From contig CAMZLG010000008.1 in NCBI GenBank assembly GCA_947311495.1, positions 1 to 42,148 of the forward strand: a stretch of DNA of 42,148 nt. Direction: 5' to 3'. This document shows positions 29,735-35,445 of the stretch, one piece after another (within the stretch, counting starts at the first letter, position 1; each line of letters starts with the position of its first letter). Source of the stretch: an uncultured Zetaproteobacteria bacterium (GTDB taxonomy: Bacteria; Pseudomonadota; Zetaproteobacteria; Mariprofundales; Mariprofundaceae). Made by a program: the position numbers and the translations under genes. Below the pieces are notes generated by a model. The model saw only the letters and a program-made list of their open reading frames with translations. It ran no database searches and was not told the origin of the DNA.

Positions 29735-30046
29735 ATGGAAATGATACCGCAAGAACAAATACAAACCGCAAGCGAAGGTCTTAAAGCGATTGCCCACGAA
29801 GTGCGTTTATCCGTGCTTTGTCATTTGATGAATGGTCCGATGTGTGTTCATGATTTGATTGAAAAAACAGGCTCATCACAATCCAACTTATCCCAGCATT
29901 TATCCAAGATGCGAATGATGGGGATATTAAATAATGAGAAGAAGGGGCAGCAAGTGTATTATAGCATTGCCAACCCAGATTTTGAAAAGCTGCTTGAAGC
30001 ATTGCAAGGCATTTATTGCTCTGATGTTTGCGTGAAGCCTAAGTAA
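29735..30046 (+). CDS. ArsR-family HTH regulator, BigR/SqrR-like
   Basis: wHTH SSQSNLSQHLSKMRMMGILNNEKKGQQVYYSI; Cys29 and Cys95 in positions resembling the BigR/SqrR thiol pair. Confidence 0.85.
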   Translation: MEMIPQEQIQTASEGLKAIAHEVRLSVLCHLMNGPMCVHDLIEKTGSSQSNLSQHLSKMRMMGILNNEKKGQQVYYSIANPDFEKLLEALQGIYCSDVCVKPK

Positions 30047-30088: not shown

Positions 30089-30304
30089 ATGTCAGTAGAA
30101 CGTATTATTCATATTGTAGCAGGATTTTTCATTGTGTTATCCGTCGTGTTATCAGGCGCACCACTTGGTGAACCAACATGGTTGTGGTTCACACTTTTTG
30201 TGGGTGTGAATTTGTTTCAATCGGGTATCACGCAGTGGTGCTTGATGGGCATTATCTTGAAGAAGCTTGGGCTTAAATCTGAATCAGCTTGTAAAACCTG
30301 CTAA
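30089..30304 (+). CDS. DUF2892/YgaP-TM-like small membrane protein ending in CKTC
   Basis: Two TM helices; MSVERIIHIVAGFFIVLSVVLS; C-terminal CxxC. Confidence 0.75.
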   Translation: MSVERIIHIVAGFFIVLSVVLSGAPLGEPTWLWFTLFVGVNLFQSGITQWCLMGIILKKLGLKSESACKTC

Positions 30305-30306
30305 TC

Positions 30307-30702
30307 ATGGCATGGGTTCAAGAAAATATCGTAACGGTTCTCATCCTGCTGATTGTGGCATGGATGGTGTGGACAAAGGTGGTAAGACCAAAAATGTTAG
30401 GCATTAAAAAGATGACAGCAGGGGCTTACCCCGACTTTAAAGAAGAGCATAGCTTGGTGGATGTGCGCTCAACAGGCGAATGGAATGGCGGTCATCCTGC
30501 CAATGCGATTCATATTCCCCTCAATGAGTTTGAGCAAAAAATGAATAAAATACCCAAAGATAAACCGCTGATTTTGATTTGTGCATCAGGTATGCGCTCA
30601 TCCATGGCGGCAACCATGGCTGCAAAAGCTGGTTATCAAGATGTGTATAATTTTGCAGGTGGTTTTGGCAGTTGGTGTGCTGCACAGCTACCGCGCAAGT
30701 AA
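30307..30702 (+). CDS. Membrane-anchored rhodanese
   Basis: N-terminal TM; VDVRSTGEWNGGHPANAIHIPL; active loop CASGMRS. Confidence 0.88.
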   Translation: MAWVQENIVTVLILLIVAWMVWTKVVRPKMLGIKKMTAGAYPDFKEEHSLVDVRSTGEWNGGHPANAIHIPLNEFEQKMNKIPKDKPLILICASGMRSSMAATMAAKAGYQDVYNFAGGFGSWCAAQLPRK

Positions 30703-30713
30703 AAGGAGTGTTT

Positions 30714-31106
30714 ATGTTTAAATATGTCATGGTACTGATGGTTGGTCTTGGTTTGGTTGCGTGTGACAGTACGCCGCCTGAAGGTTCATCACTGGCAACA
30801 GTTGAGCAAGCGCATGAGGTTCTTCTCAAAGGGCAGAAAGCAGAACCATTTTTGTTTTTGGATGTGCGCACACCAGGTGAATACAAATCTGGGCATGTTC
30901 CAGGGGCTAAAAACATTCCCGTCCAAGCATTGGCGGAACATTTAGCTGAAGTACCTAAGGATAAAAAGGTGTTTGTATATTGTGAGTCAGGCGTTAGGTC
31001 TACGCGGGCAACACAAACACTTGTGGATGCAGGGTTTAAAAACATCATTAATATGAAGGCAAGTATGCGCGGTTGGCGTAATGCGGGTTTTGAAACTGAA
31101 CGATAA
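30714..31106 (+). CDS. Rhodanese lipoprotein
   Basis: AAAAGGAG RBS then ATG at 30714; lipobox LVAC; active loop CESGVRS. Confidence 0.87.
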   Translation: MFKYVMVLMVGLGLVACDSTPPEGSSLATVEQAHEVLLKGQKAEPFLFLDVRTPGEYKSGHVPGAKNIPVQALAEHLAEVPKDKKVFVYCESGVRSTRATQTLVDAGFKNIINMKASMRGWRNAGFETER

Positions 31107-31144: not shown

Positions 31145-31171
31145 GAGCTGCTGCAAGGCAGCTCTTTTTTT
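31145..31171 (+). terminator. Rho-independent terminator of the arsR unit
   Basis: GAGCTGC-tgcaag-GCAGCTC followed by T7. Confidence 0.85.
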
Positions 31172-31277: not shown

Positions 31278-31589
31278 ATGGAAATTTCAACACCAGATTT
31301 TTATGAAAAAGTTAAAATGAAAGACTTCGACCATTGGGTTGATGTACGTACAGCAGAAGAGTTTGCAGCAGTTCGCGCTGACTCGGAGCACGTTAAGCAT
31401 CACCCGCTTGATCAAATTGTATCATTAGACTTGCCTAAAGACGCAGTGATTTATTTGTCGTGCCGTTCAGGTGCGCGTTCAGGGCAGGCGCAAGCATTTA
31501 TGTTGCAAAACGGATATACCAATGTAACCAATGTTGCAGGTGGTATTATGGCATGGGAAGCGGCAGGCTTTCCAACTACACAAGGATAA
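31278..31589 (+). CDS. Cytoplasmic single-domain rhodanese
   Basis: HWVDVRTAEEFAAVRAD; active loop CRSGARS; no signal peptide. Confidence 0.88.
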   Translation: MEISTPDFYEKVKMKDFDHWVDVRTAEEFAAVRADSEHVKHHPLDQIVSLDLPKDAVIYLSCRSGARSGQAQAFMLQNGYTNVTNVAGGIMAWEAAGFPTTQG

Positions 31590-31601
31590 GAGGAATAACC
31601 A

Positions 31602-32018
31602 ATGAAAAAACAACTACAAATCATCATTGCAGCAGCAATGTTAACATTCTCAGGGCAGGCTATTGCATGTGGTATGGGCGAAGTGACAGATGCGGGATAT
31701 GAAAACGCATCATTAGCCCACGCTTACAAACACTGGAGCCAAGGTAAACATACAAAAATACCATTTGTATTTGTTGATGTGCGCACGCCAGAAGAATTTA
31801 AAGCAGGTCACGTACCTGGTGCAGTAAATATTCCAGTTTCTGAAATTGGAGACCGTTTGAATGAAGTGCCTAAAGATAAACAAGTGTATGTGTATTGCCG
31901 TTCTGGTAAACGTGCTGCTAAAGCCTCAACCGTTTTGGCGAAAGCAGGGTTTAATGTGGAAAACATCCCAGAAAGTATGCAAGGTTGGAAAGCAGCGGGT
32001 TACCCAATCGCAAAATAA
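31602..32018 (+). CDS. Periplasmic rhodanese
   Basis: Sec signal MKKQLQIIIAAAMLTFSGQAIA; VDVRTPEEFKAGHVPGAVNIPV; active loop CRSGKRA. Confidence 0.88.
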   Translation: MKKQLQIIIAAAMLTFSGQAIACGMGEVTDAGYENASLAHAYKHWSQGKHTKIPFVFVDVRTPEEFKAGHVPGAVNIPVSEIGDRLNEVPKDKQVYVYCRSGKRAAKASTVLAKAGFNVENIPESMQGWKAAGYPIAK

Positions 32019-32081: not shown

Positions 32082-32765
32082 ATGATTTTCAGACAGTTAT
32101 TTGACGAAGCAACATGGACTTATACTTATATTGTAGCCGATGAAACAACAAAAGAAGCTTTGATTATTGATGCTGTGCTTGAAAAAGTAGAGCGCGACCT
32201 ACTGTTAATAAAAGAGCTTGGGTTAACGTTGAAATATGCTGTGGACACCCATGTTCATGCGGATCATACGACGGGTGCAGGCTTGTTGCGTGAGCGCACG
32301 GGTTGTCAAACAGGTGTTGCAGCTTCTGAAGGTGTATCATGTGCTGATATGGCTTTGAAAGAGGGTGACAGCCTTCAATTTGGTGAGTATGCACTTCAGG
32401 TTTTAGAAACACCTGGGCATACATCAGGCTGTCTAAGCTTTGTTTGCGAAGATAAAGTGTTTACAGGTGATGCCTTGTTTATCCGTGGCTGTGGTCGCAC
32501 AGACTTTCAAGCAGGTGACGCAGACACACTATATACTTCAATCACAGAGAAGTTATTTATACTTTCTGATGAAACCACTGTTTATCCAGGGCATGACTAT
32601 AAGGGTATGATGCTTTCCACCATTGCGGAGGAAAAAACGCACAATCCGAGAGTGAACTTGGGTAGAGAAGGGTTTGTGGATTTGATGAACAACCTTAATC
32701 TAGCCATGCCCAAACGTATTCACGAAGCCGTGCCTGCCAATCAAAAGTGTGGGTTAGATACTTAA
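32082..32765 (+). CDS. ETHE1-like persulfide dioxygenase (metallo-beta-lactamase fold)
   Basis: DTHVHADHTTGAGLLRE, ETPGHTSGCLSF, CGRTDFQAGDADTLY, VYPGHDYKG. Confidence 0.88.
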   Translation: MIFRQLFDEATWTYTYIVADETTKEALIIDAVLEKVERDLLLIKELGLTLKYAVDTHVHADHTTGAGLLRERTGCQTGVAASEGVSCADMALKEGDSLQFGEYALQVLETPGHTSGCLSFVCEDKVFTGDALFIRGCGRTDFQAGDADTLYTSITEKLFILSDETTVYPGHDYKGMMLSTIAEEKTHNPRVNLGREGFVDLMNNLNLAMPKRIHEAVPANQKCGLDT

Positions 32766-32842: not shown

Positions 32843-33640
32843 GTGGAAATCATGATGGTGATGGGTTTAATAAGTGCGGTATTGATGGGCATAACACTGG
32901 GTGTGTTTGGCGCGGGTGGTTCGATTCTTACCGTACCCATTCTTGTGTTTCTCATGGGTGTATCTGCATCTGAAGCCACGGCATATTCATTGTTTATTGT
33001 TGGTGTGACAGCCGTGTTTGGCGCATACACTTACTACAAACAAGACCTAATTCAATTTAGAATTGGTTTTGTGTTTGCCATACCTGCTTTTGTCGGCGTT
33101 TATGCGGTTCGTCTATTCCTTATGCCAGCTCTGCCTGAGCATATTGCAAGTATTGGCAGTTATGACTTGAGCAAAGATGCCTTGGTGCTGATTGTTTTTT
33201 CACTCATTATGATTATGGCGGCGTATGCCATGATTAAACCATCTAAAGTTCAAACCTCTGATGAACCCAAAGCATTAAACTATCCTTTGATTGCGATTGA
33301 AGGACTTATTGTCGGCGCAGTCACAGGTTTTGTCGGTGCTGGCGGTGGTTTCTTGATTATCCCTGCTTTGGTGATTCTTGCTGGCTTGAATATGAAACAA
33401 GCTGTGGGCACATCATTGATGATTATTGCCTTTAAATCATTATTGGGTTTTGCGGGTGATATTCAGGCTGGTTTGGTGGTAGACTGGATTTTATTGTTTG
33501 AAATTGTTGGGTTATCCATCATTGGTGTGTTGATTGGTGAGCGCGTTGCTCGAAAAGTGGATGGCAACAAGCTTAAACCTGCATTTGGCTATTTTGTCTT
33601 ACTGATGGGGCTAGCCATTTTAGTGAGAGAAGTGGTGTGA
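32843..33640 (+). CDS. TauE/SafE sulfite exporter-like permease
   Basis: GVFGAGGSILTVPILVFLMGVSASEATAYSL and GFVGAGGGFLIIPALVILAGLNMKQAVGTSL repeat motifs. Confidence 0.87.
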   Translation: MEIMMVMGLISAVLMGITLGVFGAGGSILTVPILVFLMGVSASEATAYSLFIVGVTAVFGAYTYYKQDLIQFRIGFVFAIPAFVGVYAVRLFLMPALPEHIASIGSYDLSKDALVLIVFSLIMIMAAYAMIKPSKVQTSDEPKALNYPLIAIEGLIVGAVTGFVGAGGGFLIIPALVILAGLNMKQAVGTSLMIIAFKSLLGFAGDIQAGLVVDWILLFEIVGLSIIGVLIGERVARKVDGNKLKPAFGYFVLLMGLAILVREVV

Positions 33641-33681: not shown

Positions 33682-34068
33682 ATGCGTTTGAAAGCAGTTT
33701 TTGAAGGGGGAAGCCGTTTTACGGTTGCCTGCCGTTCACACAGTATCACGATTGACCAACCCCAAGGTAACGGTGGGGAAGATATGGGTATGACACCTCC
33801 TGAAATCATGGCAAGTTCCTTGGCAAGTTGCATTGGTTTTTATATTGCGCGCTATTGTGAACAAGCCAAGATTGATGCTACTGGTTTGGCGGTGTCTTGT
33901 GATTGGCAGGTGGGTGGTCAGCCCAAACATATGCAAAGCTTTGATGTGCAAGTGGAGTTACCCCATTTGCCTGAGAAACGCCGCAAAGCCATTGAAAAGG
34001 TGGCTGAAAGTTGCTTGATTCATGCAACACTTGGGCAATCTCCAGAAGTGAGTATTACTCTATCTTAA
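33682..34068 (+). CDS. OsmC-family protein
   Basis: PPEIMASSLASCIGFYIARYCEQAKID; VAESCLIHATLGQSPEVSI. Confidence 0.85.
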   Translation: MRLKAVFEGGSRFTVACRSHSITIDQPQGNGGEDMGMTPPEIMASSLASCIGFYIARYCEQAKIDATGLAVSCDWQVGGQPKHMQSFDVQVELPHLPEKRRKAIEKVAESCLIHATLGQSPEVSITLS

Positions 34069-34640
34069 GCATCCAACTTCTTTGGTTATACACGCTAGCG
34101 TTTGCATTGCTGCATAGCTTGATGGCGACCAATAGCGTCAAAGCCAAACTTTACGCCAAAGGTTTGGCAACACATCATTACCGTTTATTTTATTCCGTGT
34201 TTGGCATTACTACCACAGCACTTTGGCTGTGGGCAATTTACCAGCTTGTTGATGCACCTTTGTACCAAGTTGATGGTTTTATGGTTTATATCCTATATGC
34301 CACGCAAATCGTGGGTTTGATGATTGCGATGGCAGCATTGATACCCATTGATGGTGCAGTGTTCCTTGGTTTAAGAAAAGCAGAGCAAAGCAGCGACCCA
34401 TTTATTGTGCAAGGTGTGTTTAGGTATGTTCGACACCCGATGTATGCAGGGCTCATGTTGGTGTTGTTGGCAAAACCTGAGCAAACAGAAATCGGTCTTC
34501 ATTCTGCCCTGGCAGTAAGCTTGTATTTTATTATAGGTTCAAAACTAGAAGAAAAACGAATGCTTGCAGAGCATCCCAGTTATGCTGAATATCAGCAGCG
34601 TGTGGGTGCATTTATACCCAAACTGTTTTCACGGAGTTAA
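34011..34640 (+). CDS. NnrU/isoprenylcysteine-methyltransferase-family membrane protein (MddA-like); start uncertain
   Basis: Multi-TM; GVFRYVRHPMYAGLML and EEKRMLAEHPSYAEYQQRV typical of the ICMT/NnrU fold. True start probably lies after the overlap with OsmC. Confidence 0.72.
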   Translation: MLDSCNTWAISRSEYYSILSIQLLWLYTLAFALLHSLMATNSVKAKLYAKGLATHHYRLFYSVFGITTTALWLWAIYQLVDAPLYQVDGFMVYILYATQIVGLMIAMAALIPIDGAVFLGLRKAEQSSDPFIVQGVFRYVRHPMYAGLMLVLLAKPEQTEIGLHSALAVSLYFIIGSKLEEKRMLAEHPSYAEYQQRVGAFIPKLFSRS

Positions 34641-34642
34641 TC

Positions 34643-35233
34643 ATGCCAGATTGGGAAAGTTTATATCAAGCGCAGGACATAGGTTGGGATAGGGGAGAGA
34701 CTAGCCCTGCATTATTAACCTTTATAGAGAAGGGTGCGCTTGATGATGCTAAAACTGTACTCATCCCTGGTTGCGGGCGCGGTTATGAAGTCGTGGAACT
34801 GGCGCGGCGTGGCTTTGCAGTGACAGCCTTGGATTTAGCACCCTCAGCCGTGACACATCTCAAACAAACACTTGAAACAGAAGGTTTAAGTGCTGATGTG
34901 ATTTGTACGGATATTTTTGAATATCGTACGCCCCAAGCTTTTGATGTTGTCTATGAGCAGACTTGCCTGTGTGCGATTGAACCATCCGAGCGAGAAGTAT
35001 ATGCGGCTAAGGTTTACGAATGGTTAAAACCCAAAGGAAAGTTGTTATTGAATATGATGCAAACAGGGGATGTTGGTGGACCACCATTTCACTGCGATTT
35101 CATGGATATGAAGAAGCTGTTTGCAGAAGACAGATGGACTTGGCAACAAGAGCCACCATTTATGACGGGGAGAGGTAAAGAACGCATATCACCACGCTTT
35201 GAGTTGGGTTATGTTTTGGAGAAGAAAATATGA
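34643..35233 (+). CDS. TPMT/TMT-family thiol S-methyltransferase
   Basis: DWESLYQAQDIGWDRGETSPAL; VLIPGCGRGYEVVELARRGFAVTALDLAPSAV; GGPPFHCDF. Confidence 0.85.
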   Translation: MPDWESLYQAQDIGWDRGETSPALLTFIEKGALDDAKTVLIPGCGRGYEVVELARRGFAVTALDLAPSAVTHLKQTLETEGLSADVICTDIFEYRTPQAFDVVYEQTCLCAIEPSEREVYAAKVYEWLKPKGKLLLNMMQTGDVGGPPFHCDFMDMKKLFAEDRWTWQQEPPFMTGRGKERISPRFELGYVLEKKI

Positions 35234-35445
35234 AAGAGTTTATCAAAGGTTTACCTTATCTCATTTTAATCATCATGAGCATTTTTATGGCATTCGCACC
35301 TTTCCAACCTGAACCACATTTGGTGCAGAAGTTTGATATGTTAATGGCTGGCAACCTTACCAAACCATTGGATATGTTTGATGTAGTTTGGCATTTATTG
35401 CCTGTTGGTTTATTGATTGCCAAGTTTCTTTTATCGAAGAAGTAA
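35230..35445 (+). CDS. Small two-helix membrane protein, unknown function
   Basis: ATGA-type overlap with the preceding gene; two hydrophobic stretches. Confidence 0.6.
   Translation: MKEFIKGLPYLILIIMSIFMAFAPFQPEPHLVQKFDMLMAGNLTKPLDMFDVVWHLLPVGLLIAKFLLSKK

Follow-up and report, generated by a model that had tools for sequence, protein, structure and literature searches.

A TPMT-family methyltransferase gene linked to reactive-sulfur genes in Zetaproteobacteria, with a membrane methyltransferase neighbor that is not MddA

Introduction

Bacteria are known to S-methylate H2S and MeSH by means of MddA, MddH and MddM1/M2 (PMC12904073, PMC13360808). The locus described here, in which two putative methyltransferase genes follow a set of reactive-sulfur genes, raises the question of whether methylation serves as a further route of sulfur disposal and, if so, whether the two enzymes work in series. 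The window that we analyzed is one entire contig (42,148 nucleotides) of a 1.85-Mb assembly, and its source genome is a Ghiorsea MAG (Zetaproteobacteria). The first-pass annotation had proposed that a TPMT-like soluble enzyme makes CH3SH from sulfide and that an NnrU/MddA-like membrane enzyme converts it to DMS. We examined the two genes separately, by family placement, by residue conservation and by their neighborhoods in related genomes.

Results

The sulfur-gene neighborhood and tight packing that had been described for positions 33682-35445 were confirmed, as the coordinates and overlaps are correct and the genes for the persulfide dioxygenase (PDO), the rhodaneses, TauE and OsmC adjoin the two methyltransferase genes in the order given in Table 1. 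By ORF coordinates, the NnrU-like frame overlaps OsmC and is separated by a 2-bp gap from the TPMT-like gene, which in turn overlaps the gene for the 71-residue membrane protein. Orthologues of the cluster genes in other Ghiorsea genomes are at most 92% identical and occur in the same order in many of them, and both methyltransferase genes show dN/dS values of 0.12-0.22, which is characteristic of purifying selection. The conserved order and these ratios indicate that the methyltransferase genes are real and are not chance ORFs. Of 51 Zetaproteobacterial loci, 32 have the gene for the 71-residue protein close to the TPMT-like gene, including loci that lack the NnrU-like gene and PDO.

Table 1. 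Features of the reactive-sulfur cluster in the window, listed in gene order
Feature	Position	Strand	Basis or remark
ArsR/SmtB regulator, SqrR/BigR/YgaV/HlyU-like; likely persulfide-responsive	29735..30046	+	Cys29 and Cys95 match the conserved Cys pair of these sensors
YgaP-like transmembrane (YgaP-TM) domain protein	30089..30304	+	PF11127 6e-13
Rhodanese 1, membrane-anchored, active loop CASGMR	30307..30702	+	PF00581
Rhodanese 2, lipoprotein-type signal, loop CESGVR	30714..31106	+	PF00581
Terminator-like hairpin and T-run, between rhodaneses 2 and 3	31145..31164	+	consensus match only
Rhodanese 3, cytoplasmic, loop CRSGAR	31278..31589	+	PF00581
Rhodanese 4, signal peptide, loop CRSGKR	31602..32018	+	PF00581
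Persulfide dioxygenase (PDO), ETHE1 type	32082..32765	+	PDB 4ysb 8e-81, human ETHE1 4chl 2e-75
TauE/SafE family, putative sulfite/sulfur-compound exporter	32843..33640	+	PF01925 4e-42
OsmC-like protein	33682..34068	+	PF02566 2e-16
NnrU/ICMT-like integral membrane methyltransferase, own Zetaproteobacterial clade	34011..34640	+	PF07298 3e-10; start TTG 34011 or ATC 34062
TPMT-family soluble SAM methyltransferase, distinct YEQT[CS]xCA clade; proposed sulfide/persulfide S-methyltransferase	34643..35233	+	PF05724 2e-32
71-aa small membrane protein, no known family	35230..35445	+	ATGA overlap with TPMT-like gene

The hairpin between rhodaneses 2 and 3 is strong and is followed by seven T; it may act as an attenuator or close a first transcription unit, and may divide the cluster into two such units. 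Promoter matches were no better than the chance level.

The ArsR protein matches HlyU, YgaV, BigR and further ArsR regulators with solved structures, and its two cysteines align with those conserved in the best structural matches. We liken the cluster to E. coli ygaVP, which combines a regulator of the YgaV kind, matched here, with a YgaP-type membrane rhodanese, which is here split over two genes. BigR senses H2S and polysulfide through two cysteines, Cys42 and Cys108, and the bigR operon of Xylella and Agrobacterium shares with the present locus the two-Cys ArsR sensor, a sulfurtransferase and PDO, and a TauE-type exporter (PMC5823870). A bigR/ygaVP-like gene set (two-Cys ArsR, sulfurtransferase, ETHE1-type PDO and TauE) is therefore present in one cluster. 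In contrast to bigR, the sulfurtransferase and PDO are separate proteins here, there are four rhodaneses, and OsmC and the methyltransferases are added; the bigR paper (PMC5823870) nowhere mentions a methyltransferase. Most Ghiorsea have a PDO orthologue, which many other genera lack. The SQR-like flavoprotein of other Zetaproteobacterial clusters was absent from the searched Ghiorsea genomes, with the exception of G015. In PDO-less Ghiorsea-like genomes, the sulfur cluster contains a two-domain protein that joins glutaredoxin/GST-N to DUF302 (loci L115:4880-5518 and L113).

The soluble enzyme had been annotated as TPMT/TMT-like, a description that holds for the family and fails for TPMT itself. 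It belongs to PF05724, as does human TPMT, and its best solved relatives by sequence are Arabidopsis HOL (3lcc, 7e-25), Thiol methyltransferase 1 (9h0d), and the halide methyltransferases of Tulasnella (9h04) and Paraburkholderia (8ajp). Its AlphaFold model (pLDDT 91) likewise retrieved the halide methyltransferases 9h04, 3lcc and 8ajp as the top Foldseek matches, with TPMT, TehB and NmbA lower in the ranking. We rejected TPMT sensu stricto on three grounds. The protein scores 70 bits against TIGR03840, the bacterial TPMT model, whose cut-off is 223 bits. In the tree, it forms with its relatives one clade (97/99) that includes neither the 16 TPMTs (100/99) nor HOL/TMT1. Finally, an Arg found in 16/16 TPMTs is replaced in the alignment by Gln106 in 44/44 members of the clade, at a site that we equated with human R152 by motif. 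In human TPMT, the R152E substitution lowers activity on HSS- and GSS- (PMC13089183), and the Gln at this position thus implies a different pocket if the clade handles sulfide.

The TPMT-like clade branches on the HOL/TMT1 side of the tree, where the reference set comprises only four segments; two of these are long-branched, which makes the exact sister group uncertain. The HOL/TMT1 enzymes of plants and fungi, which are small-anion SAM methyltransferases with some bisulfide-active members, share the closest sequence and fold with our protein. They differ from its clade in that the signature YEQT[CS]xCA of the clade, which is accompanied by GPP[FY]HC, stands where HOL/TMT1 have a DYxFFCA-type motif. 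The SAM site is intact in the TPMT-like and in the NnrU-like protein. Members of the clade also occur in Thiobacillaceae, Hydrogenophilales, Gallionellaceae, Thiotrichales, Magnetococcales and Planctomycetes at loci with no sulfur genes nearby (L149-L180), and in some Gammaproteobacteria the gene lies near a polyphosphate kinase-like ORF.

To describe the neighborhood of the TPMT-like gene, we collected loci from the genomes of relatives and from GTDB genomes, and counted, within 8 kb, only those Zetaproteobacterial loci that had more than 4 kb of upstream sequence. Of 32 such loci, which are related by descent and are not independent trials, 25 had at least one gene for a rhodanese, YgaP-TM, an SQR-like protein or PDO; rhodaneses occurred at 23 and SQR-like genes at 13. 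The same genes were found at 0/22 loci of non-Zetaproteobacterial homologues, for which detection could be lower with profiles built from Zetaproteobacterial members, and at 2/11 control loci, namely the off-cluster NnrU-like genes of Zetaproteobacteria. These results show that, within the class, the association of the TPMT-like gene with sulfide and persulfide genes is conserved and is not random co-occurrence.

The association also survives changes of partner. In Mariprofundus ferrooxydans PV-1, a YgaP-TM gene is followed by three rhodaneses, another YgaP-TM gene, an SQR-like flavoprotein and OsmC, and the TPMT-like gene comes after a gap of 13 bp behind OsmC. The flavoprotein scores 94 bits against type III SQR, whose cut-off is 525; because this match is distant, we prefer the name "SQR-like". 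The TPMT-like gene is thus retained where PDO is absent and an SQR-like gene is present, and it remains with sulfur genes through the exchange of these partners. Mariprofundus EBB-1 and KV are among a few exceptions that carry it away from sulfur genes, and these cases, together with those outside the class, suggest that a sulfur role may not be general.

The membrane enzyme had been assigned to the NnrU/ICMT fold within the superfamily that includes MddA. The family and the SAM core were upheld, while identity with MddA was ruled out by score, tree and residues. PF07298 is the best Pfam match (40 bits with a cut-off of 24.7), with DUF1295, PEMT and ICMT ranking lower, and the AlphaFold model (pLDDT 80) gave weak ICMT matches alone (E 0.03). 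Against the MddA model NF045656, the protein scores 63 bits, with a cut-off of 270. A tree of 52 sequences resolved MddA, NnrU proper, an intermediate group and a Zetaproteobacterial group as four separate groups. The MddA group (97/79), defined as sequences at or near the NF045656 cut-off, excludes the NnrU-like protein, which falls in the Zetaproteobacterial group (88/98), and the high-scoring PF07298 NnrU clade (100/100) is separate as well. Members of the NnrU-like group are 25-32% identical to MddA and are shorter, the N-terminal helices of MddA being missing. Of the 47 near-invariant MddA residues, 21 are conserved in 90% or more of the group and 23 in fewer than 10%. The SAM core itself, R119, H120, P121, E158 and E159 (RHP...EE), is invariant in the group, and the SAM-site residues, the Y/G positions included, whose loss would have spoken against the first-pass proposal, are present. 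Genome G145, from the same family, encodes both a protein of the MddA clade (261 bits) and another match (67 bits) in the NnrU-like score range, which indicates that MddA and the NnrU-like gene are different genes.

The genomic record of the NnrU-like gene differs from that of its neighbor. In Ghiorsea and a few closely related genomes it directly precedes the TPMT-like gene; elsewhere it adjoins genes that, named by eye from sequence, appear to encode AmpD, a cation-diffusion transporter and thymidylate synthase. The conserved co-occurrence expected for it was therefore not borne out, since its placement is random beyond Ghiorsea and kin. In G008, a Ghiorsea genome with an estimated completeness of 100%, the NnrU-like gene is a pseudogene with frameshifts and stops (L071 9960-10410) beside an intact TPMT-like gene. 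Apparent internal stops in five relatives proved to be normal stop codons near the C-terminus, and only the G008 copy is broken. Four genomes (G013, G016, G023 and G032) have the TPMT-like gene and lack the NnrU-like gene, and G033 shows the reverse. The two are not an obligate pair. Intact Ghiorsea copies nevertheless show dN/dS of 0.12-0.21, and this purifying selection indicates that the protein does something. At 34062 the window has ATC where relatives have ATG, and G007 shares the ATC; the start is thus either TTG 34011, inside OsmC, or a rare codon. A rare start codon could be coupled to OsmC termination. Overall, the two methyltransferase genes have separate histories, in which the TPMT-like gene is tied to sulfur genes in most loci of the class and the NnrU-like gene is a recent neighbor.

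Discussion

We give about even chances to the explanation that the locus is a bigR/ygaVP-like reactive-sulfur detoxification cluster with an added methylation branch, in which the TPMT-like enzyme acts on HS-, HSS- or a persulfide and the NnrU-like enzyme was recruited in the Ghiorsea lineage. From sequence comparisons and published precedents, we infer the substrates, products, regulation and co-transcription of the cluster as follows. Persulfide would oxidize the two ArsR cysteines and derepress the genes, the rhodaneses would pass sulfane sulfur to a thiol, PDO would turn persulfide into sulfite, and TauE would export the sulfite. The TPMT-like enzyme would use SAM to methylate HS-, HSS- or a persulfide of low molecular weight and would form methanethiol or a methyl disulfide without oxygen; such an arm would cost SAM and need no O2, which would suit a microaerophile. 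The NnrU-like protein would be a SAM-dependent membrane methyltransferase that joined the cluster only in the Ghiorsea lineage, is dispensable there, and may have a methylated thiol or another thiol as its substrate.

Sulfide or persulfide S-methylation by the TPMT-like enzyme is plausible. Enzymes of the same fold family carry out such chemistry: RsHTMT converts bisulfide to CH3SH (PMC2752461), and HS-, HSS-, polysulfides and GSS- are substrates of human TPMT (PMC13089183). The proposed outcome, detoxifying S-methylation of H2S or MeSH, is shared with MddH, MddM1 and MddM2 (PMC12904073, PMC13360808), which are described as UbiE/UbiG-type and are set apart by these descriptions from the PF05724 protein studied here. 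Against a sulfur role for the TPMT-like enzyme stand the replacement of Arg by Gln106 in 44/44 clade members, the loci away from sulfur genes and the hairpin inside the cluster.

HOL/TMT relatives also methylate halides and thiocyanate (PMC2752461), and the enzyme could have halides and thiocyanate, or selenium and tellurium, as its substrates, accompany the rhodaneses because these make thiocyanate or handle selenium, and take no part in sulfide disposal. The halide methyltransferases that are its closest solved relatives, the TehB fold match and TIGR03840, which is named for Se/Te, all agree with this reading, although the score against that model is far below its cut-off and the genomic partners are SQR-like, PDO, YgaP-TM, OsmC and TauE genes; we consider it unlikely. 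Shielding of a specific cellular low-molecular-weight thiol against persulfidation, by methylation as in the case of NmbA and bacillithiol, is improbable. The fold matches include NmbA, which methylates bacillithiol, and an echinomycin disulfide methyltransferase, and some related clusters have the glutaredoxin/GST-N plus DUF302 protein, but sequence and fold are closer to small-anion methyltransferases than to NmbA, and no thiol biosynthesis genes were seen within the cluster. That housekeeping methyltransferases share the neighborhood by chance, with no functional tie to the sulfur genes, would fit the absence of sulfur genes from all 22 non-Zetaproteobacterial loci. Against it stand the excess of linked loci over controls in the same class (25/32 versus 2/11) and a linkage that outlasts its partners, and we regard it as highly improbable.

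The two-enzyme volatile route that the first-pass annotation had put forward, from sulfide to CH3SH by the TPMT-like enzyme and from CH3SH to DMS by the NnrU-like enzyme, is quite unlikely. In its favor are the adjacency retained in diverged Ghiorsea species and close kin, the purifying selection on both genes, and the membership of the NnrU-like protein in the MddA superfamily with its SAM core kept. Ghiorsea also lacks the SBP56 methanethiol oxidase that would otherwise consume CH3SH: none was found in 21 genomes, and we dropped SBP56 oxidation as a fate of CH3SH. On the other side, the NnrU-like protein lies outside MddA in identity, N-terminal part and near-invariant residues; its gene is broken in one genome and absent from four that keep the TPMT-like gene; elsewhere it adjoins non-sulfur genes; and the known Mdd enzymes each perform both steps alone (PMC12904073, PMC13360808). 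As a conserved pathway the route is thus unsupported, the NnrU-like gene being in the cluster in Ghiorsea and kin alone. A more far-reaching version, in which the PF05724 clade is the non-oxidative arm of a persulfide-responsive operon and Ghiorsea recruited a non-MddA membrane enzyme for DMS, so that a two-enzyme Mdd route was built from unrelated proteins, is a speculation to which we assign a low probability.

For the methylation branch that we favor, the tie of a PF05724 clade to SQR-like/PDO clusters appears to be new within the known systems of bacterial S-methylation and bigR-type operons. A literature search with thiopurine methyltransferase, persulfide dioxygenase, rhodanese and gene cluster gave no paper combining them among the matches listed, with subscription papers outside the search. 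As a caution for annotation, an NnrU/ICMT-like neighbor of sulfur genes need not be MddA.

The conserved linkage of the TPMT-like gene to sulfur genes, seen over much of the class, suggests that the cells dispose of toxic sulfur by methylation besides oxidation. If the TPMT-like clade does methylate sulfide or persulfides, the SQR/PDO clusters of marine iron oxidizers would gain an O2-independent methylating overflow arm, in parallel to the recent result for mammalian TPMT, and the Zetaproteobacteria would be an unrecognized source of methanethiol at vents. Since the clade is also present in several sulfur-oxidizing Beta- and Gammaproteobacteria, one assay would inform the interpretation of many genomes.
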